Shown here piece by piece: positions 29,453-41,665 of a stretch of DNA of 64,000 nt; position 1 is the first letter of the stretch, and every line of letters starts with the position of its first letter. The stretch covers positions 124,001 through 188,000 of the forward strand of contig NZ_PGDQ01000011.1 of assembly GCF_003073135.1 (NCBI RefSeq), written 5' to 3'. The DNA comes from Euzebya rosea. Lineage in GTDB: Bacteria > Actinomycetota > Nitriliruptoria > Euzebyales > Euzebyaceae. The notes beneath the pieces are model-generated. The model had not been told where the DNA came from. It saw only the letters and a program-made list of their open reading frames with translations, and did not search any database. The translations under genes and the position numbers were made by a program.

Positions 29453-29470
29453 TCCCTCGTCACGACCCCA

Positions 29471-29503
29471 CGACGCCGCCCCCTCTCGCAGGGGGCGGCG
29501 TCG
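29471..29503. terminator. 14-bp perfect stem-loop
   Basis: CGACGCCGCCCCCT (29471-29484) and its exact complement (29490-29503) flank a five-base loop. It lies between the convergent sigma-factor and DUF6351 genes and is followed by GTTCGTT. A strong bidirectional intrinsic terminator. Confidence 0.8.
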
Positions 29504-29522
29504 GTTCGTTCCGGGGCGTGGC

Positions 29523-31631
29523 CTAGAAGGCCGTGGACGTCGGCGGTGGCCCCAGCGGACGACCGCCCGGGCCGTCGTTGTAGGTCAGCCACTGCACCGA
29601 CGGCACTTGGCCGACGCCGGGGACGGAGTAGTCGCAGACACCGTCGGGGAACACCTGCTCGAGGACCAGCAGGTCAGCCGGGGTGACCGGCGGCACGGCA
29701 CCGGCATAGTCGGCCGGGTCGATCGGCTTGAGCGTGCACTTCAGCACGTCGTGCGACAGCGGCATGCCCGCCTGGATGCGGGAGTCCGCGAACACCTCCG
29801 GGGCGCAGGCCGACAGGTCCTCCTGCGATCCGGAGCTCCAGCAGGAGTCCTCGGCGATCGTGGGTCGGGTGTCCTTGACCACGTCGGGGTCCAGGCCGGT
29901 GAGCGGGTCGATGCCGCCATCTGCCTCGACCGACGCCAGCCAGTCGTCCATCGTGTCCCAGGCCGTGCCCGACGGACCGTTGTGCCAGATCACGTGGTTG
30001 TCCTCGTGTCCGATCCGCGCCATGCGCTCCTCGATGGCGTAGGCGTGGTACGGGGTGTGGATCTCCACGTTGAGGGACGCGGCGAAGTCGATGATGGCGG
30101 TGCGGGCCAGGCCGCGGCCGTCGTTGAGCATGCTCGAGCGGTAGGCGATCTCGGCCGTGGCCGGGTCCATCGCGGTGCGCGCCACCTGGCGGACCCCGTC
30201 GATGTCGACGCCGCCGACGCGGGTGTTGAGGTCCAGGAACTGCTGCATCGTGATCTTGCCGGGGTCGGTGGCCGGCAGGTTCAGGGCGACGAGACCGTAC
30301 TGGACGCCGACGTTGTCCAGGGCCCGGTGAGCGAAGCCGTTGGCGTCGCGGCCCCAGACGTTGGCCTGGATGTCCTGGATGGTGGCCCGGCAGCCGTCGG
30401 ACTGGACGACGGGGATGTAGTCACGGGTCGGGTCGGGCGTGTTGGTCGTCGGGACGCCGGAGTCGGAGAAGCAGCCGTTGAAGGGGATGGAGCCGGGGGC
30501 GAACGTGCCGACCCACGCGCCGCAGGTGGACTGGGGCGGACCGTGCCCGTCGACGGCGGCCTTCTGCAGCGGCGTCATCGGGCTGGCGGTTGCCTCGAGG
30601 ACCACGCAGTCGTGGACCTCCATCGCGGTGGACCAGACGTCGGGGAACGTCGAGCCGGGCATGAGGCCGTTGGTGATGCCGGGGTAGGCGTTGGAGACCT
30701 GCAGCTGGCCGATGGCGCCGCCGGAGCCGCCGGTGCTCATCGTGTAGCGGATCGGGCCGGCCGTCTCGACGACCCGCTCCTTGAGCATCAGCGCGGTCTC
30801 GGCGGACAGCACCGGGTTGCAGTGGTGACCCAGGACGTTGAGGGAGGAGGTGGCGATCGCGAAGCCCTCCGCGAGGCGGGTGGCGTTGAGCACGCTGGGC
30901 ATCGACCCCTGCGTCTGGTTGGTGTTGCAGCTGGCGCCGAAGGGGTAGTAGAGCTTGCGGTTCCAGCCGTCCTGCGGATTGCGCGGGTCGGGCTCGCCGG
31001 TGGCCGGGTCGTGGAGGAACGCGAAGGCGTAGAGGCCGCGGTTCAGGCTGCCCCGTTCACGGCGGACGATGTGGCGGACGGTGTCACCGCGGTCGTTGGT
31101 GACGGTCGCGACGTTGGTCGGCGGGTTGCTGAGGTCGTAGGCCTGGTAGCTGGTGCCGCCGGTGGGGACGTAGTGGTAGTCGACGATGCTGGGGGCGTTG
31201 CAGTGCCCGTCAGTCGGCTCACCGAGGCCGTTCTCGGCGGTGCGGCAGTCCCACGGTTGCAGGTGCGGGCCGGAGAAGACCGGGCCCTCGATGGGGTGGT
31301 TGGTGAGGGTCAGCGTGGCGCCGGATCCGTCCGGCTGGGTTGCGGTGAGGGTGTTGTCGCCGACGGCGAGGCCGGTGACCAGGCCGAGATAGCGGCCGTC
31401 GAGTCCGGTGGCGAACGCGTCGGTGACGTCGGTGCCGTCGAGGTCGATGACGGTGCCGGCGGGCGGGGTCGGGCTGATCTCGACGAGGACGTCGCCGCCG
31501 GAGACCAGGTCGGCGCGGGTGGAGAGCGTCGAGATGGTGAGCTCGGGCCCTGAGGCCCTGACCGGGACGGTGAGGAGAAGCGTGGACAGCAAGGCGAGGA
31601 CCGCGAAGATCCTCGGAACGATCGTGCGCAT
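29523..31631 (-). CDS. Secreted DUF6351-family protein
   Basis: 702 residues. Residues 1-26 are a signal peptide ending 'VPVRASG'. A short beta domain follows ('LTISTLSTRADLVSGGDVLVEI'), then a long region typical of DUF6351 proteins: 'HLQPWDCRTAENGLG', 'RKLYYPFGASCNTNQTQG' and 'MSTGGSGGAIGQLQVSNAYPG'. The latter GGSGG resembles the nucleophile elbow of alpha/beta-hydrolases. Cysteines are numerous, as expected of an exported, disulfide-bonded protein. The function is unproven; an esterase-like role is inference. ATG 31631 fits the signal peptide. Confidence 0.8.
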   Translation of the reverse strand: MRTIVPRIFAVLALLSTLLLTVPVRASGPELTISTLSTRADLVSGGDVLVEISPTPPAGTVIDLDGTDVTDAFATGLDGRYLGLVTGLAVGDNTLTATQPDGSGATLTLTNHPIEGPVFSGPHLQPWDCRTAENGLGEPTDGHCNAPSIVDYHYVPTGGTSYQAYDLSNPPTNVATVTNDRGDTVRHIVRRERGSLNRGLYAFAFLHDPATGEPDPRNPQDGWNRKLYYPFGASCNTNQTQGSMPSVLNATRLAEGFAIATSSLNVLGHHCNPVLSAETALMLKERVVETAGPIRYTMSTGGSGGAIGQLQVSNAYPGITNGLMPGSTFPDVWSTAMEVHDCVVLEATASPMTPLQKAAVDGHGPPQSTCGAWVGTFAPGSIPFNGCFSDSGVPTTNTPDPTRDYIPVVQSDGCRATIQDIQANVWGRDANGFAHRALDNVGVQYGLVALNLPATDPGKITMQQFLDLNTRVGGVDIDGVRQVARTAMDPATAEIAYRSSMLNDGRGLARTAIIDFAASLNVEIHTPYHAYAIEERMARIGHEDNHVIWHNGPSGTAWDTMDDWLASVEADGGIDPLTGLDPDVVKDTRPTIAEDSCWSSGSQEDLSACAPEVFADSRIQAGMPLSHDVLKCTLKPIDPADYAGAVPPVTPADLLVLEQVFPDGVCDYSVPGVGQVPSVQWLTYNDGPGGRPLGPPPTSTAF

Positions 31632-31968
31632 GTGTGCCCCTGTTCGGTTCGGCCGCCCCATCGGCTCGTGCGGGACGACTCGACCGGCCCCTTCGTCGTG
31701 GGACCGGCGTTCTCCTGCCGGCCCGGCCGGTGGGGCGGAGGTGGAGACGCGGTCTCTGTTGCACGAACGGAGTCGAGGCATGGACCTGACAGTGGTAGGG
31801 CGCCGGACCGTTCAGCGCGGTGGTGATCGCGGGCCCGTGAGGACCCTCCGTCCGGGGTAGGGTCCCGGACGTGAACACGCGCATCAAATGACCCGGCCCG
31901 ACCGCGTCGTGCGGTCGTGCCCACCGATGGTCATCCCCGATGACAAGCGACCCTCGAAGGAGCCGCGC
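31632..31968. other. Divergent intergenic region, about 340 bases
   Basis: Between the DUF6351 gene (minus) and the hypothetical gene at 31969 (plus). It holds an inverted repeat, GGACCCT (31841-31847) and AGGGTCC (31859-31865), which could be a terminator or operator. A frame running in from 31888 to the downstream gene is open but lacks a ribosome site and coding character. No RNA gene was recognised. Confidence 0.5.
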
Positions 31969-32409
31969 GTGTTCTCCGTGCTGAAGCACCTGTCCGTCCG
32001 CATGCCCGATGACCGCCGTCCCGGCCGCCTGCCGCGCGTCTGGCGCAACGCCGATGATCAGTGGAACTCTTGGTTCTGCCTGGAGGTACCCGGCCTGATC
32101 AGCCTCGCTGTCTGCCCCGGCGAGGTGCGGGACGACCGCTGGTTCACCCTCGGGCAGTCCGACCGGACCCACCTCTGGTTCACCTCACCGGACTACGCCT
32201 TCAACGCCGGGGTGCCGTTCACGGCGTTGCACCTGGACCCCGACCAGTGCCTGTACACCCAGCTCGATCAGCACGACCTCGGGGTTCTGCGTCCCGACCG
32301 CCTGCTGCAGCTGGCCGACTGGATCCAGCCGAACATTCTCGACGAGCACCACCCCGACTACCTGAACCACGAGCGGTTGCGCCGTCCGCTCGGGACGGTC
32401 CACAGCTGA
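31969..32409 (+). CDS. Hypothetical protein, 146 residues
   Basis: Family not recognised. GTG 31969 has AAGGAG six bases upstream. The sequence has many Trp, Asp and His residues ('DDQWNSWFCLEVPGLISLAVCPGEVRDD', 'HLWFTSPDYAF', 'LADWIQPNILDEHHPDY'), with no signal peptide or membrane segment. It begins a stretch of less G/C-biased codon use that continues through the NERD and helicase genes, so it may have arrived with them. A short stem-loop follows its stop. Confidence 0.6.
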   Translation: MFSVLKHLSVRMPDDRRPGRLPRVWRNADDQWNSWFCLEVPGLISLAVCPGEVRDDRWFTLGQSDRTHLWFTSPDYAFNAGVPFTALHLDPDQCLYTQLDQHDLGVLRPDRLLQLADWIQPNILDEHHPDYLNHERLRRPLGTVHS

Positions 32410-32417
32410 CCAACTGA

Positions 32418-32432
32418 CCTTCCCAAGGAAGG
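32418..32432 (+). terminator. 6-bp stem-loop between the hypothetical and NERD genes
   Basis: CCTTCC (32418-32423), loop CAA, GGAAGG (32427-32432), nine bases after the stop of the preceding gene. A weak terminator at best. Its right arm runs into the ATTCAAGACT block that is shared with the region upstream of the second NERD gene. Confidence 0.4.
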
Positions 32433-32469
32433 ATTCAAGACTCGCCGTTTCTCAGCCGTTGCTGTCTGC

Positions 32470-33114
32470 ATGACGTGGACTACCGAACCCTCCTGGCTCG
32501 ACCGTCGGCCGGGTCAGGGGGCTCGCGAGATGCAGGCCGACGCAGCAGCAGCCACACCTGGGTGGCTACGGGTCGCCCGCTTACTTCTTCGTGTGCACGA
32601 TGACGAGCGGGCGTGGCGTCGAGGTGCCGAGGACGAGGAGGCCGTTGGACGGAAGCTGGCGAAGCTGGACGATCGATGGACCGTCCTTCACGACCTGCCA
32701 CTCAACGAGAAGGGCTCGAACCTGGATCACCTGGCGATCGGGCCCGGAGGAGTCTTCGCCCTCAACACCAAGAAGGTGCGCGGCAAGATCTGGGTTGGCG
32801 AACGGGTGGTCATGGTCAACGGCCAACGCACCCCATATCTCCGAACCGCCAGGTGGGAAGCCAAGACCGTTGCGAGCCTGCTGTCGGCCGCCGTGGGCCA
32901 GACGGTCGACGTCCGGCCGGCGCTGGTCTTCGTGGGTGGCGAGCTCGTGATCAAGCAACGCCCATCCGACGTAGGCATCACCACGAACTGGACCATCAAC
33001 CGATGGCTGAAGTCACAGCGGAACGTTCTTGACCCGAACCCACTGGCGGCAGTCCAGCGCAGCGCGCGACTGGCGCGGACATGGCCCGTGCCGTCGTTGC
33101 CGCAGGACTGGTGA
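32470..33114 (+). CDS. NERD-domain (nuclease-related) protein, copy 1
   Basis: 214 residues. The NERD domain occupies about 45-185: 'AWRRGAEDEEAVGRKLAKLDDRWTVLHDLPLNE', 'SNLDHLAIGPGGVFALNTKKVRGKIWV' and a later 'PALVFVGGEL'. The D in 'NLDHL' and the 'NTKK' lysines match the PD-(D/E)xK-like core, though activity of NERD proteins is unproven. It is strongly similar along its length to the protein at 41009-41665, and even the upstream ATTCAAGACT block (32433-32442) is shared. It lies 83 bases ahead of the large helicase gene on the same strand and may belong to its system. Confidence 0.85.
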   Translation: MTWTTEPSWLDRRPGQGAREMQADAAAATPGWLRVARLLLRVHDDERAWRRGAEDEEAVGRKLAKLDDRWTVLHDLPLNEKGSNLDHLAIGPGGVFALNTKKVRGKIWVGERVVMVNGQRTPYLRTARWEAKTVASLLSAAVGQTVDVRPALVFVGGELVIKQRPSDVGITTNWTINRWLKSQRNVLDPNPLAAVQRSARLARTWPVPSLPQDW

Positions 33115-33197
33115 GAAGAGCTCCTCACACGCGCCGTCATCCCTGACGAACACCGCTTGGCATACTGCCCCGGCAGTTCTCGATCGCCGACCGAAGT

Positions 33198-36100
33198 GTG
33201 GCCGTGTCAGACCTCTCTCCGTTCTTTGCCATCCCGCCCAGCGAACACCTCGCCGGCAACGCATCTGCGTTCGCGATCGCGGCGCCTGATTCGCCAGTCG
33301 CCGGGCATTCCCTGCTGGTGTCTCGCCGGCTGATCGAAACGTGGTGGCAAGCGACGCCACAGGAGCAGGCCGACCTGCTCTCGCTCGTGGGCGACGTCAA
33401 GCGCCTGCTCGACGATCAGCACGGCCCCACCGGCTACACGGTCGGGTTCGACTCGGGTCACTCCGCCGGCCAGCAGATCCCTCACCTCCACCTTCACGTG
33501 ATCCCACGCTTCGGCACCTCGGCGTCCCGTGGCGTTGGGTCACTGACGTCTTCCGAGAGCCTTGACAGTGGGGTGGTTCGTCTGGCCGACGGCACGTCCG
33601 CACCCCTCGGTCCGGCACTGCTCAGCCTGCTCGAAACCAGCACGTACGACAGGGTCGATCTCGTCGTCAGCTTCGTGATGGAGTCCGGCCTCAAGGTGAT
33701 CGCCGACCCCCTCGCCGACGCCGTCGAACGAGGATCGCAGCTACGCGTCCTCACCACCGACTACCTGTACCGGACCGAGCCCCGAGCGTTGCGCCTCCTG
33801 CACGACCTGGGGACCGAGTATCCCGGCAGGGTCCAGCTCCGCGTGTTCGAGAGCCGCGGTGTCCGCAGCTTCCACCCGAAGGGCTACTTGTTCCACTCCT
33901 CCACCGACGACCAGGCCGCTGCCTGGGTCGGATCCTCCAACCTGAGCGCGTCAGGGCTCGAAGGAGGCATCGAGTGGAACGTGGGCCTGGACACCGTGCG
34001 TCCCATGCTGGAGACCTTCGAGGAACTCTGGACGCATGCCTGGACGGTGCCGCTCACCGAACGGTGGATCCAGGAGTACCAACGTCACCGTCCCTTCTCC
34101 CGGACCGCGCCACCCCCTCCGGGTTTGCTCGATCCGTCGACTGACGTCGATCTCGCAGCCGAGACGACCACCCCAACCGACGACTCCGGGATCCAGGAGC
34201 TCGTCCCTGCCGGTGTGGACCCCGCCGACGTGACCGTGGAGGTCGCTCAGCCCTACACACCGCGCGAGCTCCAGGCCGAAGCGCTCGCGGCGCTGGAGGC
34301 CACCAGAGCCGACGGGCACCGGGCCGGCCTCGTGGTGATGGCCACCGGTCTCGGCAAGACCTGGCTCGCCGCGTTCGACACCGCCCGCCCGCAGTTCGGC
34401 CGGGTGCTGTTCCTTGCCCACCGGGAGGAGATCCTCCGCCAGAGCCTCGACGTGTTCCGCAAGGTCCAGCCCGATCGGTCGCTCGGGATGTTCATGGCAC
34501 AGGAACGCGAGGAGGACTCCGATGTCGTGTTCGCCAGCGTGCAGACCCTCCATCGCCACCTCGATGAGTTCGAGGCGTCTGACTTCGACTACGTCGTTGT
34601 CGACGAGTTCCACCACGCGGCGGCCTCGTCGTACCGAAAGGTGATCGACCACTTCGACCCGGCGTTCCTGCTGGGTCTCACCGCAACCCCGGAACGCATG
34701 GACGGTGCGGACCTCCTCGGCCTGTGCGGGGACAACCTCGTCTACGAGGCCAATCTCGTCGAGGGCATCAACCGCAACGAGCTGGTGCCCTTCGAGTACC
34801 ACGGCATCAAGGACATCGTGGACTTCGTGCCGATCCCCTGGCGCAACGGCAAGTTCGACCCGGCGATGTTGTCGGCCGCCATCGAGACCCACGATCGGGC
34901 CGCCCACGCCCACCGGGAATGGGCCAGCCGGGCTGGGAAGCGAACGCTCGCGTTCTGCCAGACCACCGCACACGCCGACTTCATGGCTGAGTGGTTCCGC
35001 CAGCAGGGCCTTCGGACTGCATCGGTGCACTCCAAGCCGTCCTCCGACCCGCGCCGTGGGTCCGTCAGGAAGCTGGAGAACGGCGAGCTGGACGTGCTGT
35101 TCGCCGTGGACGTCTTCAACGAGGGCTTCGACCTGCCGGCGATCGACACGGTCCTGATGCTCCGCCCAACCGATTCACCGGTGATCTTCCTCCAGCAGCT
35201 CGGCCGCGGCCTCCGGCTTGGTGACAACAAGGAGAAGCTGGTCGTCGTCGACTTCCTCGGCAACCACCGGTCCTTTCTCGCAAAGCCACGGGCGCTGCTG
35301 GGACTCGGCATGGCGGAGACGCCCAGCGCCGCGAACATCCTGGCCGCGCTGGAAGACGGGGATTGGCAATTGCCAGCGGGGTGCTCGGTCACCTGGGAGC
35401 TGGGGGCGGTCGACCTGCTGCGCGAGCTGGCCACCAGCCGGCAGCGCTACGAGCCCGGCTCGACCTTGGTCGCCTACGTCCAGGACCACGCCGAGGAGTT
35501 CGGTGAACGTCCGACAGCGATGCAAGCCCTCCGCTCGGGATACAACCCCGCCAGCGCCAAGCGGTCCCACGGGGGCTGGTTCGGCCTGCTGCGGAACGAG
35601 TCGCTTCTCACAGAGCAGGAGACCGAGGCGTGGGACCGGTTCCGTTCACTCGTCGCCGAGGTCGAGGCCACCTCGATGACGAAGTCCTACAAGATGGTGC
35701 TGCTCAAGGCCTTGTTGCACGAAGGGGCCCTGCACGACGGGATGGACTCGCACGAACTCGCCGCGGCGTCCCGCCGAATCGTTGAGGCCGACCCCAGGCT
35801 GGTCAGCGACGTCCAATCGTCCTCCCTCCCAGACGTGTCGGCCCTGACCGATGAGCAGTGGGCCGTCTTCTGGCGCAAGAACCCCATGGCGGCGTGGACC
35901 GGGGAGTTCGGGAAGGGTCAGCCCGCATTCCGGTTGGAGGATGACCGGTTCCTTCCGAACTTCAGCGTTCCGGAGGACCTGCGGGACGCGGTCGAGGCCA
36001 TGCTCGCCGAGCTGATCGAGTGGCGCCTCGGCGACTACCTGCTCCGCCGCACTCCGAGTCGAGGGCATGACATCGAGCTGACGGTCTCCCACAGCAGCGG

Positions 36101-37238
36101 GAAGCCCATCCTGCGGTTCGACCGCACCCGGAACCCCGAGGTGCCCGAGGGGCCGACGCCGTTCCTCGCCGATGGCGAGCGGTACGTCGGGAACTTCGTG
36201 AAGATTGCGCTGAACACGGCCGAGGTGCTGGGCCAACAGGGGAACGCGCTCTGGCCACTCCTGCGTGGTTGGTTCGGCCCGAACGCCGGGCGACCGGGGA
36301 CGTTGCACCGAGTCCGTCTCTCCCAGATCGACGGTGAATGGGTGATGCGTCCGATTGGGGCGGTCGCCGCCGGCGGCGGGACCGCCCTGCCGTTCTTCCC
36401 GACCTATCAGGTGGCGTGCGGCGCGTTCGGTCAACCGACGGATCTGCTGGTCGCAGGTCAGGCAATCGAAATCGCCGACACCCGCGGTGAGGACCGGTCG
36501 CCAAGCGAAGAGTTCGTGGTGACGGCACACGGCGACTCGATGGCTGGTGGACCCGACCCTGTGAAGTCAGGGGACCGGCTGTTGATGCGTTGGATCAGCG
36601 GGCAGGATCGCGCCGCGCTGGTGGGGCGGCGCGTTCTGGTGGAGTACGACGCCGGCGAAGGGCCGAGCGCGGTACTCAAGACGCTCGACCGGACAAAGGA
36701 CGGATTCGTGCTGCGATCCGACAACCCCTCCGCACCACCCATCTCGGCCGCCAGCTGGATGACCCTTGTCGCCGAGTACCTACGAACCCTCGACCAGAGG
36801 GAGTACAACCCGCTGGCCCGTCACCTGGGCGAGGCGTTCAAGCGACAGGACATCCCGCCGTTGTATGGCGAGGAGTTCAATCCCGGCAACTGGAACACCG
36901 GCCATGTCTCGCTGGACCAGGACGTCCTGCTCTTCGTCACGCTGCACAAGGGCAACATGCAGGAAGGAGGGGACTACGAGGACCACCTCGAGGGCGGCGA
37001 CATCCTCGTGTGGTCGTCGCAGTCGAGCGTCGGACCCGACAACAAGAAGGGCCGAGAGATCCTGAACGCGCCGAGCGACGGCACCCGCATTCACGCGTGG
37101 CTCCGCCGCCGCAAGTCCGACGTCGCCTTCGAGTACTGCGGCCTGGTGACCCCACTGGACCACAGGGGCGCCAAGCCGATGTCCGTCCGCTTCCGACTGA
37201 GCACGCCAATCCAAGCAACCTCTGCCCTGCTGGCGTAG
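33198..37238 (+). CDS. HIT-PLD-SF2 helicase-S24 peptidase-DUF3427 multidomain protein, probable defence protein
   Basis: 1346 residues from GTG 33198 (GTG 33204 also possible; no clear ribosome site). Domains: HIT (about 1-105; H96-x-H98-x-H100); phospholipase-D-like nuclease (130-290; H226-P-K228 and 'GSSNLS' at 245-250, the usual later Asp replaced); SF2 helicase (365-720; Walker A K387, DEFH at 469-472, 'TATPER' near 495, 'QQLGRGLR' near 666); a middle region (740-1050); S24/LexA-like peptidase (1100-1185; S1114 in 'HGDSM', K1161); DUF3427 C-terminus (about 1200-1340). PLD-helicase-DUF3427 proteins are linked to phage defence; HIT and S24 in the same chain are unusual. Codon use is less G/C-biased than neighbours. 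Confidence 0.88.
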   Translation: MAVSDLSPFFAIPPSEHLAGNASAFAIAAPDSPVAGHSLLVSRRLIETWWQATPQEQADLLSLVGDVKRLLDDQHGPTGYTVGFDSGHSAGQQIPHLHLHVIPRFGTSASRGVGSLTSSESLDSGVVRLADGTSAPLGPALLSLLETSTYDRVDLVVSFVMESGLKVIADPLADAVERGSQLRVLTTDYLYRTEPRALRLLHDLGTEYPGRVQLRVFESRGVRSFHPKGYLFHSSTDDQAAAWVGSSNLSASGLEGGIEWNVGLDTVRPMLETFEELWTHAWTVPLTERWIQEYQRHRPFSRTAPPPPGLLDPSTDVDLAAETTTPTDDSGIQELVPAGVDPADVTVEVAQPYTPRELQAEALAALEATRADGHRAGLVVMATGLGKTWLAAFDTARPQFGRVLFLAHREEILRQSLDVFRKVQPDRSLGMFMAQEREEDSDVVFASVQTLHRHLDEFEASDFDYVVVDEFHHAAASSYRKVIDHFDPAFLLGLTATPERMDGADLLGLCGDNLVYEANLVEGINRNELVPFEYHGIKDIVDFVPIPWRNGKFDPAMLSAAIETHDRAAHAHREWASRAGKRTLAFCQTTAHADFMAEWFRQQGLRTASVHSKPSSDPRRGSVRKLENGELDVLFAVDVFNEGFDLPAIDTVLMLRPTDSPVIFLQQLGRGLRLGDNKEKLVVVDFLGNHRSFLAKPRALLGLGMAETPSAANILAALEDGDWQLPAGCSVTWELGAVDLLRELATSRQRYEPGSTLVAYVQDHAEEFGERPTAMQALRSGYNPASAKRSHGGWFGLLRNESLLTEQETEAWDRFRSLVAEVEATSMTKSYKMVLLKALLHEGALHDGMDSHELAAASRRIVEADPRLVSDVQSSSLPDVSALTDEQWAVFWRKNPMAAWTGEFGKGQPAFRLEDDRFLPNFSVPEDLRDAVEAMLAELIEWRLGDYLLRRTPSRGHDIELTVSHSSGKPILRFDRTRNPEVPEGPTPFLADGERYVGNFVKIALNTAEVLGQQGNALWPLLRGWFGPNAGRPGTLHRVRLSQIDGEWVMRPIGAVAAGGGTALPFFPTYQVACGAFGQPTDLLVAGQAIEIADTRGEDRSPSEEFVVTAHGDSMAGGPDPVKSGDRLLMRWISGQDRAALVGRRVLVEYDAGEGPSAVLKTLDRTKDGFVLRSDNPSAPPISAASWMTLVAEYLRTLDQREYNPLARHLGEAFKRQDIPPLYGEEFNPGNWNTGHVSLDQDVLLFVTLHKGNMQEGGDYEDHLEGGDILVWSSQSSVGPDNKKGREILNAPSDGTRIHAWLRRRKSDVAFEYCGLVTPLDHRGAKPMSVRFRLSTPIQATSALLA

Positions 37239-37269: not shown

Positions 37270-37929
37270 CTACCCCTCCAGCGCCTCCAGCCACTCGGTC
37301 CAGAAGTCCTGCCAGGCGGGGACGACCGTGTGGTCGGGCAGACGGGTGTGGGCGACGTTGACGGCGGTGCGGCCGTCGGGCTTGGGGGTCAGCGTGAACT
37401 CCACGCTCCCCTCCTCCATCGCGATGCGCACGTTCTTGGACGTGGGGCGGGAACGCAGCTCGGTGGGCATGCCGCCGAACAGGTGGTCGCGGCCATCCGC
37501 GTCCAGCAACAGCTCGCGCAGCTCATCGGCGTCCACCGCCACCGTCCTGGTCCGTGACGAGGCGAACAGCCCATCGGACTGCTGGAACGGCAGCCGCTGA
37601 CCGGTGATGCGCTCCCAGCTGACCGTCACGCCCTGTGCCCACCAGCCGGTCAGGCCGTGGACCTCCATCAGGTGCTCGACGACCGCCGAGTGCCCGTCGG
37701 TGTGCCCGTCGAAGGCCTCGATCAGGTCGCACCACTCGTCCCACCCTCGCCCGGTGTTGGACCGGATGGCTTCGTCCGACATCTCCGGCTGGGACACCCA
37801 GGCCCGGCCATCAACCCGCGGCGCCGCGGCCTGCTGCTCGAGCAGCACCCGCCTCGCCTGGGCGTATCGTTCGCCGGTCCTCGCCATCCGCTCGCGGACA
37901 CGGCGCTTGAAGGTCTGCTGTGTGGTCAT
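37270..37929 (-). CDS. DUF4287 plus SRPBCC-like protein
   Basis: 219 residues from ATG 37929. After a basic N-terminus comes a DUF4287-type segment: 'GRGWDEWCDLIEAFDGHTDGHSAVVEHLM' then 'LTGWWAQGVTVSWERITGQR'. The C-terminal half ('TRTVAVDADELRELLLDADGR' through 'AVNVAHTRLPD' and 'WQDFWTEWLEALEG') is an AHSA1/SRPBCC-like ligand-binding fold. Function unknown. It converges with the helicase gene, 31 bases apart. Confidence 0.8.
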   Translation of the reverse strand: MTTQQTFKRRVRERMARTGERYAQARRVLLEQQAAAPRVDGRAWVSQPEMSDEAIRSNTGRGWDEWCDLIEAFDGHTDGHSAVVEHLMEVHGLTGWWAQGVTVSWERITGQRLPFQQSDGLFASSRTRTVAVDADELRELLLDADGRDHLFGGMPTELRSRPTSKNVRIAMEEGSVEFTLTPKPDGRTAVNVAHTRLPDHTVVPAWQDFWTEWLEALEG

Positions 37930-38109
37930 GACGTCCTCGTCCCTGGCCCGACCAACACCGGTTCGCCACGCCCCACCGATGCGTCGAGCACACGACGGAA
38001 GTCCATCAACCACTCCTGTCGACCACTCGGTGACCTTGCCTCCCCGGGACCGGGCCGCGTGGAGGCCCGATGTGGAGGTCCGGCGTGACAGGACGCCGTG
38101 TACGAAACG

Positions 38110-38592
38110 CTACGCCGACCCCCGCCGACCGTCAACGGCACCAGGGGAACCCGGCTCGTACCGCTGGCACAGCAGCATCTCCCCCGTCTCCTCGTGTCGG
38201 CACTCCTCCTCTCCCACGAACCCGTAGGCGGCGTAGAAGCGCCGGCCGATCGTGTTGGCGGTGAACACCTCCACCCGCACCGCCCCGCGCAGCTCGACCG
38301 CCTTGTCGACCAGCGCCCGGCCCAGCCCCTGCCCGTGGAACGCCGGGTCGACGAACAAGCCGCCGATCTCGTCCCCGACCAGCGCGACGAACCCGACGGG
38401 CCGACCCTGGACCTCAGCCACCCACGTCTCGGCCCGTGGCAGGTAGACCTCGCGGGTGCGCCGCTCCTCCTCCACCACGAACTCGTCGCTGAGGAACGGG
38501 TGGGCCAGCGCGCTTGCCCGACGCCACGCGTCGACGACGGCGTCGGTGTCCTCGGGCTGGAACCGCCTGATCACGACACCAGCATGACCCAT
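38110..38592 (-). CDS. GNAT acetyltransferase (YjaB-like)
   Basis: 160 residues: 'VIRRFQPEDTDAVVDAWRRAS', 'GRPVGFVALVGDEIGGLFVDPAFHGQGLGRALV' (acetyl-CoA loop) and 'RRFYAAYGFVGEEECRHEETGE', which closely follow the YjaB/PhnO group. Substrate unknown. The first residues are uncertain; a GTG at 38574 would start directly at the conserved region. The 180 bases between it and the DUF4287 gene hold nothing recognisable. Confidence 0.85.
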   Translation of the reverse strand: MGHAGVVIRRFQPEDTDAVVDAWRRASALAHPFLSDEFVVEEERRTREVYLPRAETWVAEVQGRPVGFVALVGDEIGGLFVDPAFHGQGLGRALVDKAVELRGAVRVEVFTANTIGRRFYAAYGFVGEEECRHEETGEMLLCQRYEPGSPGAVDGRRGSA

Positions 38593-38663
38593 TCCTTGAC
38601 ACTCCCGTCGCTGCTCGGGACGCTGCGTTCGGTCGGGCCATCACCACCCGGAAGGTCGAAGCC

Positions 38664-40913
38664 GTGCGTCCGTCATCCGTCGTCCTCGCCTTGACTGCCC
38701 TGCTCGCAGCACTCCTCCCCACCCCCGCACCCGCCGCCGGCGAGCCGAGCCCGGACGACCCGTCCTCGAACCTGCAGGACCGTTGGATCGTGACCTCCGA
38801 CCACTACCCCGTCGACGGCGACGGCCATCCGCGGGCCGCGGTCGAGCACCGGGTCGAGGGAGTCGTCGTCGAGTGGGTCGAGATCAGGCCCGCCGTGTTC
38901 GAGGCCACCGTCGTCGACGGCGGGTACGAGCCCTGCATGGCCCCCGGCACCGTCCTCGTCACCGAGATGGTCCCGCGGTCGGACCGGGCCACTACGTTCG
39001 ACGGTCTCGCCCTCGACGCCGACTGCACCCAGCACCACGTCGAGCTGGAGATGTCCGATCCCTCCACCGATCCGTTCCTGACCTGGGACACCCCCACCGG
39101 CCGGATGCGCCTGGACCACGGCAACAACGACTGGGTGGAGGTGGAGCACCGCGTCGTCGGCGACTGGCTGCTCCACGACACCGACGCCCCCGACAGCCCG
39201 CCCGGGCGCACCGTCCTGCGCATCACGGGCACCTCCCCCACCTTCACGGCGACGATCGTCGAGGCGGAGGAGGGGTCGTGCTTCGTCCCGGGTGAGGTCT
39301 GGTGGGACGGGCTCGTGTGGGGCCACGGGCTGATCCCCGGCGGCGCCGGCCAGAACCGGGCCTGGGGCATGGTCGACGGGTTCCGCCTCGGCGCCCACGA
39401 GGACTGCAGCCAGCATGCCGGCGGCGGCAGCGTCGGCTTCTTCACCTTCGGTGGCCAGCTCACCATGGCCGCCTTCCCCGACCCCGGCGGGACCGGGTAC
39501 ATGGGGTTCAGTCGCCTCGCCGGAGGGTCGCCGGTCGACCCTCCCCCACCCGGGGACCACACCGCCGACCCCGCCGACCACCCTGACCTGGCCGGCGACT
39601 GGCGCACGACCACCGGTGAGATCCGCGAGGTGTCCATCCGCTGGACCGGTGACCCGGCAGAGCCGTTCCTCGGCCGCCTCACCACGCAGGGCGACCCGAC
39701 CTGCCCGCCGGCCCACACCGACATCTGGAGGGTCACCGAGGCCGTCGACGACGCCGTCGCCCGCGGGCAGGTCACCCTCCACCGGCGCACCGCGACGGGG
39801 TGCGAGCTGCGCGGGACCGTCCCCGCGGAGATCACCCTTCTCGACGACCCCGCCGACCGCGAGCTCTACATCGCCTACGAGGATCCCGACGGCATCAGCC
39901 ACCTCCTGCGGTACGTCAGCGACCGCCGTACCACCTTGCGTGGCGGCCGGGACGAGCAGGCCCTCGCCATCGGCTTCCTGTCCGCGACCCTGAGCCACCT
40001 CGGGTTCGGGGGGCTCGACCCGACACCGCCGCCCGGACAGCGTGGCGCGGCATCCAGCGACCTCACCCTCTACGTCGCCACCGACGCCAACTTCCCTGAC
40101 GGGCTGGCCGTCGCCGGGCTCGCCGGACGCACCCGCGGCCTGACGGTGCTGGTGGACCCCGACGACCCGGACGGCAACGCCCGGCTGCTGGAGCTGCTGG
40201 CCCCGTCCTTCGCCGAGGTCGTCGTGGTCGGTGGCGAGGCCGTCGTCCCCTCCTCCAGCCTCCCCTCCACCGGGGAACGCGGCGCGCCAACGGGTCGGAT
40301 CGCCGGGACCAACCGGTTCCACACCGCACAGGTCCTGACCGAGGCCGGCTGGCTGGAGGGTGCCGGCACGGTGTTCGTCGCCACCGGCGTCAACTACCCC
40401 GACGCCCTGTCGGGTGGTGCAGCCGCCGCCGTCGAGGGCGCGCCCGTCCTGCTGGTCGACGGTGGACGGATGCCACCCGAAACCGACGCGGCCCTCCGCA
40501 GCCTCGAGCCGGACGAGATCGTCGTCCTCGGCGGCAAGTCAGTCATCCCCGACTCGATGCTGGCCGCGCTGACCGACTACGCCCCGAACGTCATCCGTCT
40601 GGCCGGCCCCGCCCGTCAGCAGACCTCGGTGGCCGTCTCGACCAACCGGTTCCACCGCGGGGCCGACGCGGTGCTGATGGCTTCCGGCGACCGGTTCGGC
40701 GAGGCGCTGATCGCGGCGTCAGCGGCATGGGCCCACGCCGCGCCGCTGCTGCTGGTCGGCGACGACGTCATCGCGCCGTCGGTGCTGACCGAGCTCGACC
40801 GGCTGGGCGGGACCCGCCTGCAGCTGCTCGCGGTCGAGGACACCGTCGACCCTGCCGTCTACCAGGAGGTCGCCGCACGGTTCAGGGGCGGGCCGGCGCG
40901 GACAACCCGCTGA
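38664..40913 (+). CDS. Secreted protein with C-terminal cell-wall-binding repeats (CWB2)
   Basis: 749 residues from GTG 38664 (GGAAGG upstream). Signal peptide at 1-25. Residues 30-455 form an extracellular region with repeated 'VEHRV' / 'FEATVVDG' / 'CxxGT' units (three related segments), function unknown. Residues 465-740 are CWB2 repeats: 'LYVATDANFPDGLAVAGLAG', 'VVVVGGEAVVPSSSLP', 'RIAGTNRFHTAQVL', 'YPDALSGGAAA' and 'EIVVLGGKSVIPDSML'. CWB2 modules hold proteins on anionic wall polymers in Clostridia; in Nitriliruptoria-like actinobacteria they are common. A stem-loop follows the stop. Confidence 0.88.
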   Translation: MRPSSVVLALTALLAALLPTPAPAAGEPSPDDPSSNLQDRWIVTSDHYPVDGDGHPRAAVEHRVEGVVVEWVEIRPAVFEATVVDGGYEPCMAPGTVLVTEMVPRSDRATTFDGLALDADCTQHHVELEMSDPSTDPFLTWDTPTGRMRLDHGNNDWVEVEHRVVGDWLLHDTDAPDSPPGRTVLRITGTSPTFTATIVEAEEGSCFVPGEVWWDGLVWGHGLIPGGAGQNRAWGMVDGFRLGAHEDCSQHAGGGSVGFFTFGGQLTMAAFPDPGGTGYMGFSRLAGGSPVDPPPPGDHTADPADHPDLAGDWRTTTGEIREVSIRWTGDPAEPFLGRLTTQGDPTCPPAHTDIWRVTEAVDDAVARGQVTLHRRTATGCELRGTVPAEITLLDDPADRELYIAYEDPDGISHLLRYVSDRRTTLRGGRDEQALAIGFLSATLSHLGFGGLDPTPPPGQRGAASSDLTLYVATDANFPDGLAVAGLAGRTRGLTVLVDPDDPDGNARLLELLAPSFAEVVVVGGEAVVPSSSLPSTGERGAPTGRIAGTNRFHTAQVLTEAGWLEGAGTVFVATGVNYPDALSGGAAAAVEGAPVLLVDGGRMPPETDAALRSLEPDEIVVLGGKSVIPDSMLAALTDYAPNVIRLAGPARQQTSVAVSTNRFHRGADAVLMASGDRFGEALIAASAAWAHAAPLLLVGDDVIAPSVLTELDRLGGTRLQLLAVEDTVDPAVYQEVAARFRGGPARTTR

Positions 40914-40926
40914 TCAGCTGCGCACA

Positions 40927-40939
40927 GGGGGCGTCCCCC
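40927..40939 (+). terminator. Short GC stem-loop after the CWB2 gene
   Basis: GGGGG (40927-40931), loop CGT, CCCCC (40935-40939), then GTTTCG. It lies 13 bases after the stop and is a plausible terminator. Confidence 0.45.
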
Positions 40940-41008
40940 GTTTCGCGGCTGAAGAACGAACCACCCATTCATTCAAGACTTTTCGTTCGGAAGCCGATGC
41001 AGCGGTCC

Positions 41009-41665
41009 ATGGAATGGACGACCGGTCCCGTGCCTCCTCGCCAGCCCCGGGCGGGACAGGGCGCGCGCGCCATGCAGGCCCATGCCGCGAGCGCAACGTC
41101 TGGCTGGCTCAGGCTGGCTCGACGACTGCTCGGTGCGCACGATGCCGAACGTGCGTGGCGCGTGGGGGCCGAGGGGGAAGAGCAGGTCGGTCACTCGCTC
41201 GCCACGCTGGACGACCGGTGGACGGTGGTCCACGACCTCCCGCTGAACGAGAGGGGTTCGAACCTGGACCACCTGGTCATCGGCCCGACCGGTGCGTACG
41301 CGCTCAACACCAAGAACTTGCGTGGACGCGTCTGGGTGGGGGAACGGACGGTCATGGTCAGCGGTCAGAAGACGTCCTACCTCCGAACGGCACGCTGGGA
41401 GGCGGCGACGACCGCACGGCTCCTGTCGGCGGCGACTGGCCGCAGGGTCTTCGTGTTCCCCGTCCTCGTCTTCATCGCCCGACGGGGACGGATCACGATC
41501 GAACAGCTACCGCGAGACGTCGGCATCACCACTGACCAGGTGATCTGCCGATGGCTGAACAGACGTCCTGTGACGATGGACCCCCACCACGCAGCGGTCC
41601 TGCGTGCAGCTGCACTGCGGCCGAGCACCTGGCCCGTTCCGAAGCGGCCGCCCACTCGTTCCTGA
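41009..41665 (+). CDS. NERD-domain protein, copy 2
   Basis: 218 residues. ATG 41009 is chosen because 'MEWTTGP' aligns with 'MTWTTEP' at the start of copy 1 (32470). The NERD core is nearly the same: 'AWRVGAEGEEQVGHSLATLDDRWTVVHDLPLNERGSNLDHL' region, 'YALNTKNLRGRVWVGERTVMV', and 'YLRTARWEA'. The ten bases ATTCAAGACT occur 28 bases upstream, as in copy 1 (27 bases). Its codon use is more G/C-rich than copy 1. It stands alone between a CWB2 gene and an MFS gene. Duplication of gene plus leader is the simplest explanation. Confidence 0.85.
   Translation: MEWTTGPVPPRQPRAGQGARAMQAHAASATSGWLRLARRLLGAHDAERAWRVGAEGEEQVGHSLATLDDRWTVVHDLPLNERGSNLDHLVIGPTGAYALNTKNLRGRVWVGERTVMVSGQKTSYLRTARWEAATTARLLSAATGRRVFVFPVLVFIARRGRITIEQLPRDVGITTDQVICRWLNRRPVTMDPHHAAVLRAAALRPSTWPVPKRPPTRS

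Follow-up and report, generated by a model that had tools for sequence, protein, structure and literature searches.

What is a LexA-type domain doing between the motor and the DNA reader of a restriction enzyme? The question is raised by a gene at positions 33198-37238 (plus strand) of a 64,000-nucleotide stretch of the Euzebya rosea genome (hereafter the window; assembly GCF_003073135.1, contig NZ_PGDQ01000011.1, positions 124,001 to 188,000), which encodes in one chain, in this order, a HIT domain, a PLD-like nuclease, an SF2 helicase, a coupler-equivalent region, an S24 domain and DUF3427. Our tentative answer, to which we give somewhat less than an even chance, is that a RecA-triggered cut at the S24 domain switches restriction off in what is otherwise a Type IV enzyme of the SauUSI type. 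The original prediction had described the fusion as a possible single-gene defence whose protease could release or activate the nuclease. Profile searches found every fused domain above the curated Pfam cut-offs, and the single-gene defence is well supported by the SauUSI-type Type IV core and by the gene's place, alone, in a site that carries Dpd and Gabija-like genes in a sister species; it is over the action of the protease that our reading departs from it. What is new is the built-in LexA-type link; the core is of a known kind.

Restriction core and C-terminal reader

With HIT and S24 left aside, the window protein belongs with SauUSI among the Type IV restriction enzymes, which depend on modified cytosine. 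SauUSI itself (PDB 7clg) was the top solved relative in the sequence search (E 4.3e-81), with matches in the nuclease, ATPase and C-terminal domains, and Foldseek, too, ranked it best over the chain (E 6e-36). The top PADLOC models were those of Type IV methyl-directed restriction enzymes, the best being Type IV REase at 3e-104. The motor is covered in Pfam by ResIII (residues 354-500, E 4.7e-37) and Helicase_C (577-675, E 2.3e-16), and its SF2 motifs are present, with the Walker A K387 in GLGKT, DEFH at 469 and motif VI as QQLGRGLR. The nuclease motifs FHPKG (H226, K228) and GSSNLS (245-250) are likewise present and aligned with those of SauUSI; the PLD motif is kept in relatives that include the PLD region.

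The C-terminal domain is matched by Pfam as DUF3427 at residues 1208-1340 (E 2.7e-14), a match that covers only the second half of the Pfam model. In 2013 this domain was described as having an unknown function, with a proposed role in substrate recognition (PMC3874153). The SauUSI structure identified it as an SRA domain that binds 5-methylcytosine (5mC) and activates the ATPase, the motor starting only on reader engagement (PMC7913695). In our AlphaFold2 (AF2) model, the segment 1204-1346 can be laid over SauUSI 803-953 with Z 14.8, and over the 5mC-binding SUVH5/6 with Z ~10. Six pocket positions, whose roles in SauUSI are given in PMC7913695, could be mapped: F841, D858 and W868 are conserved unchanged, while Val stands in for I842, Thr for M829 and His for Y831, and the pocket-position residues of the window protein include F1246, V1247, D1262 and W1272. 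By analogy with its relatives, the window enzyme would read modified cytosine and shred DNA, and chemically modified phage DNA is its probable target.

The GTG start is supported by alignment of the N-terminal residues with those of a same-genus relative, and the single open reading frame (ORF) runs through 1346 residues without an internal stop. The full architecture from HIT to DUF3427 is found in five further genomes (L122, L115, L134, L135 and L151), a recurrence beyond chance, and L152 is probably a sixth. The L152 sequence is a 4093-base contig that ends within or just after S24, with the HIT part in another frame. The HIT active-site motif HxHxHxx is present in the window protein as HLHLHV at 96-101 (H96/H98/H100). 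In the relatives L014 and L036-L038 HIT is degenerate and S24 is absent. Degenerate HIT in alphaproteobacterial relatives shows the domain to be inessential to the core, and in the window protein it is probably a nucleotide-handling accessory; the original prediction had proposed that it could sense or destroy nucleotides. Between the ATPase and S24, residues ~706-1055 gave no confident Pfam match. The coupler-equivalent region is mostly helical in the AF2 model up to about residue 950, without a sequence match to the SauUSI coupler. It is followed by a segment with an LLRGWFGP motif (window 36075-36362, residues ~960-1055) that has no Pfam name, is common to L122 and the S24-less HIT-type L014, and is absent from the methyltransferase-type relatives (described below) in the alignment compared.

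The S24 insert as a candidate restriction switch

Pfam places Peptidase_S24 at residues 1090-1186 (E 6e-7). Searched alone against solved structures, the S24 sequence returned chance matches only, and the family profile reached UmuD at E 0.023 (8gmt), with the family ACG falling on the UmuD QCG site; it was the fold search that decided the identity of the domain. The matches for residues 1062-1201 of the AF2 model are structures of lambda repressor and LexA, some of them RecA-bound (8gmu, Z 11.4; 8s7g, Z 10.5; 8trg, Z 10.4), and LexA 1jhh compares with the S24 model at Z 10.7. The dipeptide C1074-G1075 sits about 40 residues ahead of S1114, which lies in GDSM, and K1161 lies in AVLKT. The model has a modest mean predicted local distance difference test score (pLDDT) of 63.8; within the S24 core, averages over ten residues are 62-83 beyond residue ~1095. 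The N-terminal winged-helix DNA-binding domain of LexA repressors is lacking: the coupler and helicase precede S24, and Pfam gives no match of that kind. Fold, scissile dipeptide and Ser/Lys dyad support a protease that looks active. Residues S1114, K1161, K387 and H98, to which the original prediction had pointed, are intact; C1074-G1075, DUF3427 as an SRA-type reader and PLD H226/K228 go beyond it. A bona fide LexA with the expected motifs is encoded elsewhere in the genome, so that SOS control is available.

We read the S24 residues in 27 rows, the window protein and some near copies included; L139 and L140 (cut ORFs, both with ACG) were left out, and L018 stops before the S24 position. The scissile [C/A]-G is found in 26 of the 27 rows, as C-G in 25 and as A-G in one (L152). 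Such an alternation of A-G and C-G is known between LexA and UmuD. Ser occupies the catalytic position in 26 rows as well, and the Lys position holds Lys in six, Arg in 19 and Ala in one, being unreadable in the last (L129). The Lys rows are all HIT-type: [C/A]-G, Ser and Lys occur together in 6/7 HIT-type rows, which came from two separate phylum-level searches. The exception, L135, has lost Lys and has Cys and Ser replaced as well, while DUF3427 and the residues of the HIT, PLD, Walker A, DEFH and motif VI motifs remain in place (L135:6562-10530). On this evidence the cut site and dyad appear to behave as one unit that is dispensable for the rest, and L135, a single case, points to a modulatory off-switch rather than to obligate activation.

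In the mechanism that we propose, the SRA reader would find modified cytosine in incoming DNA and direct the PLD nuclease and the ATP-driven SF2 motor, with the self-cleaving S24 domain inserted between motor-coupler and reader. On DNA damage, RecA filaments, the co-protease of LexA, would provoke a self-cut at C1074-G1075 via S1114/K1161, yielding a HIT-nuclease-motor-coupler part of 118.3 kDa and an S24-reader part of 29.8 kDa. Because the SauUSI motor requires reader engagement, loss of the reader would uncouple recognition from translocation, and restriction would end as DNA breaks build up. The outcome would be a built-in restriction alleviation, or negative feedback. For the window protein, self-cleavage, its RecA dependence and its off direction are steps that we infer.

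Several points weigh against this proposal. When a longer model (residues 148-1346) was compared by VIA-align, RadD (helicase part, Z 26.5) outranked SauUSI (Z 24.6, root-mean-square deviation 29.6). The AF2 blocks around the predicted cut site have pLDDT of only 39-59, and most of S24 scores below 50 in the longer model, too low to place the domains relative to one another or to orient S24 to the motor. The off direction would rest mainly on one natural variant, L135. RecA dependence is assumed, and an exception to the RecA rule has been reported for at least one LexA-like protein (PMC7101444). DUF3427 is missing after S24 in the methyltransferase-type relatives L039, L119, L120, L126 and L127, and in these Arg-type enzymes a cut could not detach a reader. 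Finally, the proteobacterial sister group of methyltransferase type has Arg at the position of K1161 in 19/19 readable members, with C-G and Ser invariant.

This last point, the main finding against simple cleavage, bears on the view that the S24 domain does not cleave at all, its LexA fold and C-G loop serving as a dimerisation or signal-sensing joint that shifts the reader, and its protease residues being structural. In the Arg group C-G and Ser have persisted despite the altered general base; a regulatory role without cleavage may explain their conservation there, and the retention of S24 in enzymes without DUF3427 also fits such a role. When the 18 rows of the Arg set were reduced to 13 at 85% identity, A-C-G, Ser and Arg fell within 31/122 invariant columns. 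Arg-type S24 domains also have an invariant Lys four residues past the general-base Arg, at the position of R1165 in the window protein. A literature query on LexA K156R returned nothing relevant on Arg replacing Lys. In the HIT-type group, however, Lys is found in 6/7, and the sole loss took Cys, Ser and Lys together, as if cleavage were selected; for the window protein we consider a non-cleaving joint possible but rather unlikely.

The same residues and fold would serve equally if the cut were activating, as the original prediction had it: RecA filaments formed in phage attack would have the reader cut off, and the nuclease-motor would then shred DNA without requiring modification, aborting the infection. 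In favour of such a kill switch we count the rise in RecA filaments that phage attack, or another defence, can bring about. However, a cut between motor and SRA would free the reader, not the nuclease, and in L135 the protease residues are gone while HIT, nuclease, motor and reader persist, the other motifs checked being intact. Release or activation of the nuclease by cleavage is thus doubtful, and we regard an activating switch as unlikely. That HIT and S24 merely decorate an ordinary SauUSI-type enzyme, with no effect on restriction, fits the functioning of SauUSI without either (PMC7913695) and the degenerate HIT and absent S24 of L014 and L036-L038, but is very improbable, since within the HIT+S24 subclade HIT and S24 alike have stayed intact across large distances and the S24 residues are among the 34/125 invariant positions of the four actinobacterial Lys-type rows.

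Relatives, genomic site and carriage

A tree of 45 PLD-helicase cores was built by a quick method with SH-aLRT support only. The 17 classic SauUSI-like rows, none with S24, are set apart there from a clade that numbers 27 rows (support 99). In this clade the window protein nests with the HIT+S24 rows (set of eight, support 95; pair with L122, support 98), and the S24 rows of methyltransferase type, 14 in number, group on their own (support 99); S24 presence on the tree is explained by two changes. The Staphylococcus aureus plasmid record L138, which served only as the tree outgroup, carries an unannotated SauUSI-like copy split over frames.

The methyltransferase-type group takes its name from a class I S-adenosylmethionine (SAM) methyltransferase of ~200 residues, fused or adjoining in 14 of the 15 rows whose 5' end can be read (a count that takes in near copies; L016 and L121, without 5' ends, left out). 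It is fused at the N-terminus in three rows (L009, L118 and L125), and a further 11 have it directly upstream in the same orientation, with the two genes in contact or overlapping (L010, L011, L012, L013, L015, L116, L119, L120, L126, L127 and L039); the exception, L117, has a weaker homologue that is convergent and downstream. No such gene was found within the ~1.5 kb flanks examined for the 17 classic rows. The small methyltransferase distantly resembles part of mad2 of PADLOC. The S24 module extends beyond PLD-helicase enzymes: S24, with the same methyltransferase as partner, is also found at the end of two HNH proteins (L128 and L074) and of one other SF2 helicase (L129). In L128:5863-8007 and L074:6268-8405, the latter an IMG/VR viral contig, the methyltransferase is followed by an HNH nuclease of ~515 residues that ends in S24.

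The window gene stands alone at a defence hotspot. Its flanks are collinear with the sister species G003, of the same genus (Table 1), and between them G003 holds 32,049 bp (C1:413014-445062; L165, L166) in the exact slot of the window gene. This island has matches to DpdB, DpdD, DpdG, DpdH and DpdJ, a DndB-like gene and a GajB-like (Gabija-like) helicase; the slot is thus one used for defence cargo. Transfer had been suggested from codon use, for which composition is weak evidence: the gene has 67.1% GC and 86.0% GC3, and of its neighbours five have 69.9-73.9% GC, a sixth 68.0% and a NERD gene 65.9%. The synteny break with G003 is much better evidence for it. Homologues in housekeeping contexts with degenerate catalytic residues had been named as what would speak against a defence role. 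Neither applies to the window gene, but in L135 the S24 domain is degenerate, and the neighbours of L134 are ordinary genes (luciferase-like, esterase and MMPL). L115 adjoins an SMC/AAA gene and a gene of AAA_5, the family that includes McrB, and L135 adjoins a helicase with a REase_MTES_1575 domain.

Paralogous NERD-domain genes flank the restriction gene at 32470-33114 and 40727-41665. The first was considered as a partner and rejected, as it is part of the left flank, which G003 shares, and none was found in the stretches examined around L122, L115, L134 and L135; weak NERD matches were seen near L116 and L126.

Table 1 Features of the gene and its flanks, in window coordinates
Feature	Coordinates	Strand	Basis or remark
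Left flank collinear with sister species G003	29463..33208		87% identity; ends ~10 nt inside the gene
HIT-PLD-SF2-coupler-S24-SRA(DUF3427) gene	33198..37238	+	1346 residues, ~148 kDa
HIT domain, residues 23-105	33264..33512	+	Pfam PF01230, E 2.6e-12; HLHLH 96-100 intact
PLD-like nuclease, residues 151-278	33648..34031	+	Pfam PF13091 (PLDc_2), E 5.7e-7; aligns with SauUSI nuclease
SF2 ATPase/translocase, residues 354-675	34257..35222	+	Pfam ResIII and Helicase_C; SauUSI match; Foldseek
Coupler-equivalent region and unnamed conserved segment of HIT-type relatives, residues ~706-1055	35313..36362	+	Between ATPase and reader, as in SauUSI
Predicted LexA/UmuD/lambda-CI-type S24 self-cleavage domain, residues 1063-1188	36384..36761	+	Pfam; AF2 model (lambda repressor, Z 11.4; LexA, Z 10.7)
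Predicted scissile dipeptide C1074-G1075	36417..36422	+	Profile alignment to UmuD VQCGF (8gmt); [C/A]-G in 26/27 rows
Predicted catalytic Ser S1114	36537..36539	+	Ser in 26/27 rows
Predicted catalytic Lys K1161	36678..36680	+	27 rows: Lys 6, Arg 19, Ala 1, unreadable 1
DUF3427, SRA-type modified-base reader, residues 1204-1346	36807..37235	+	SauUSI 803-953, Z 14.8; SUVH6, Z 10.4; pocket residue mapping
Right flank collinear with G003	37276..40883		81% identity; begins 38 nt past the stop codon

S24-bearing relatives were searched for at E 1e-15 or 1e-25, thresholds at which weaker relatives are missed. They were found in 3/396 genomes of the window's phylum and in 2/66 of its class, both in its genus; other genome sets gave 7/369, 1/247, 7/398 (two of them repeats from the 7/369) and 3/201 (one repeat), and 2/109 genomes reached from L014, which likely belong to another phylum. 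DUF3427-only relatives are several times commoner (24/396 genomes of the window's phylum). A search of viral contigs with the window protein gave no match, and among plasmid and phage records none covered 80% of it; the closest viral match is the one IMG/VR contig with an HNH-S24 protein, L074.

Novelty and comparison with known systems

The available parts of the literature on DUF3427 mention no LexA, S24 or HIT domain, and we found no description of a SauUSI-type enzyme fused to S24 or HIT in the literature searched, in which subscription journals and outside preprints were not covered. What would be new is an SOS-triggered self-destruct link, by which the enzyme cuts off its own reader, together with a LexA-type domain that acts as a portable nuclease control module, Ser-Lys with a fused HIT or Ser-Arg with a small methyltransferase, on PLD-helicase, HNH and one further SF2 helicase enzyme. 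We hold this wider claim to be a real possibility, although one that is more probably wrong than right. If true, it would be a one-protein link from SOS sensing straight to restriction, an undescribed wiring of DNA-damage sensing. The relatives point to a wider nuclease family with S24 and a methyltransferase partner, one of them on a viral contig.

Compared with SauUSI, the window protein has its PLD nuclease, SF2 translocase, coupler-equivalent region and SRA/DUF3427 reader in the same order in one chain, with the reader C-terminal, and largely keeps the 5mC pocket residues; it differs in that SauUSI has neither HIT nor S24, in the low sequence identity between the two, and in lying in a clade apart from the 17 classic SauUSI-like relatives tested. 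With LexA, UmuD and lambda CI it shares the fold (Z 8 to 11), a C-G scissile-type dipeptide and a Ser followed by a Lys, whereas its S24 domain lies inside a nuclease-motor enzyme rather than in a DNA-binding repressor or polymerase subunit. The HIT part resembles the Fhit/HINT-type hydrolases in its HxHxHxx motif and sequence family, but is fused to a restriction enzyme. A functional parallel to the proposed off-switch would be the alleviation of Type I enzymes by ClpXP, in which proteolysis also halts a translocating restriction enzyme after damage. Restriction alleviation, by which cells keep these enzymes from doing them harm once DNA is damaged, is attributed in the Type I case to proteases from outside or to control of assembly (PMC12707154). 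With ClpXP, HsdR is degraded by a separate protease, whereas in the window protein the switch would be built in.

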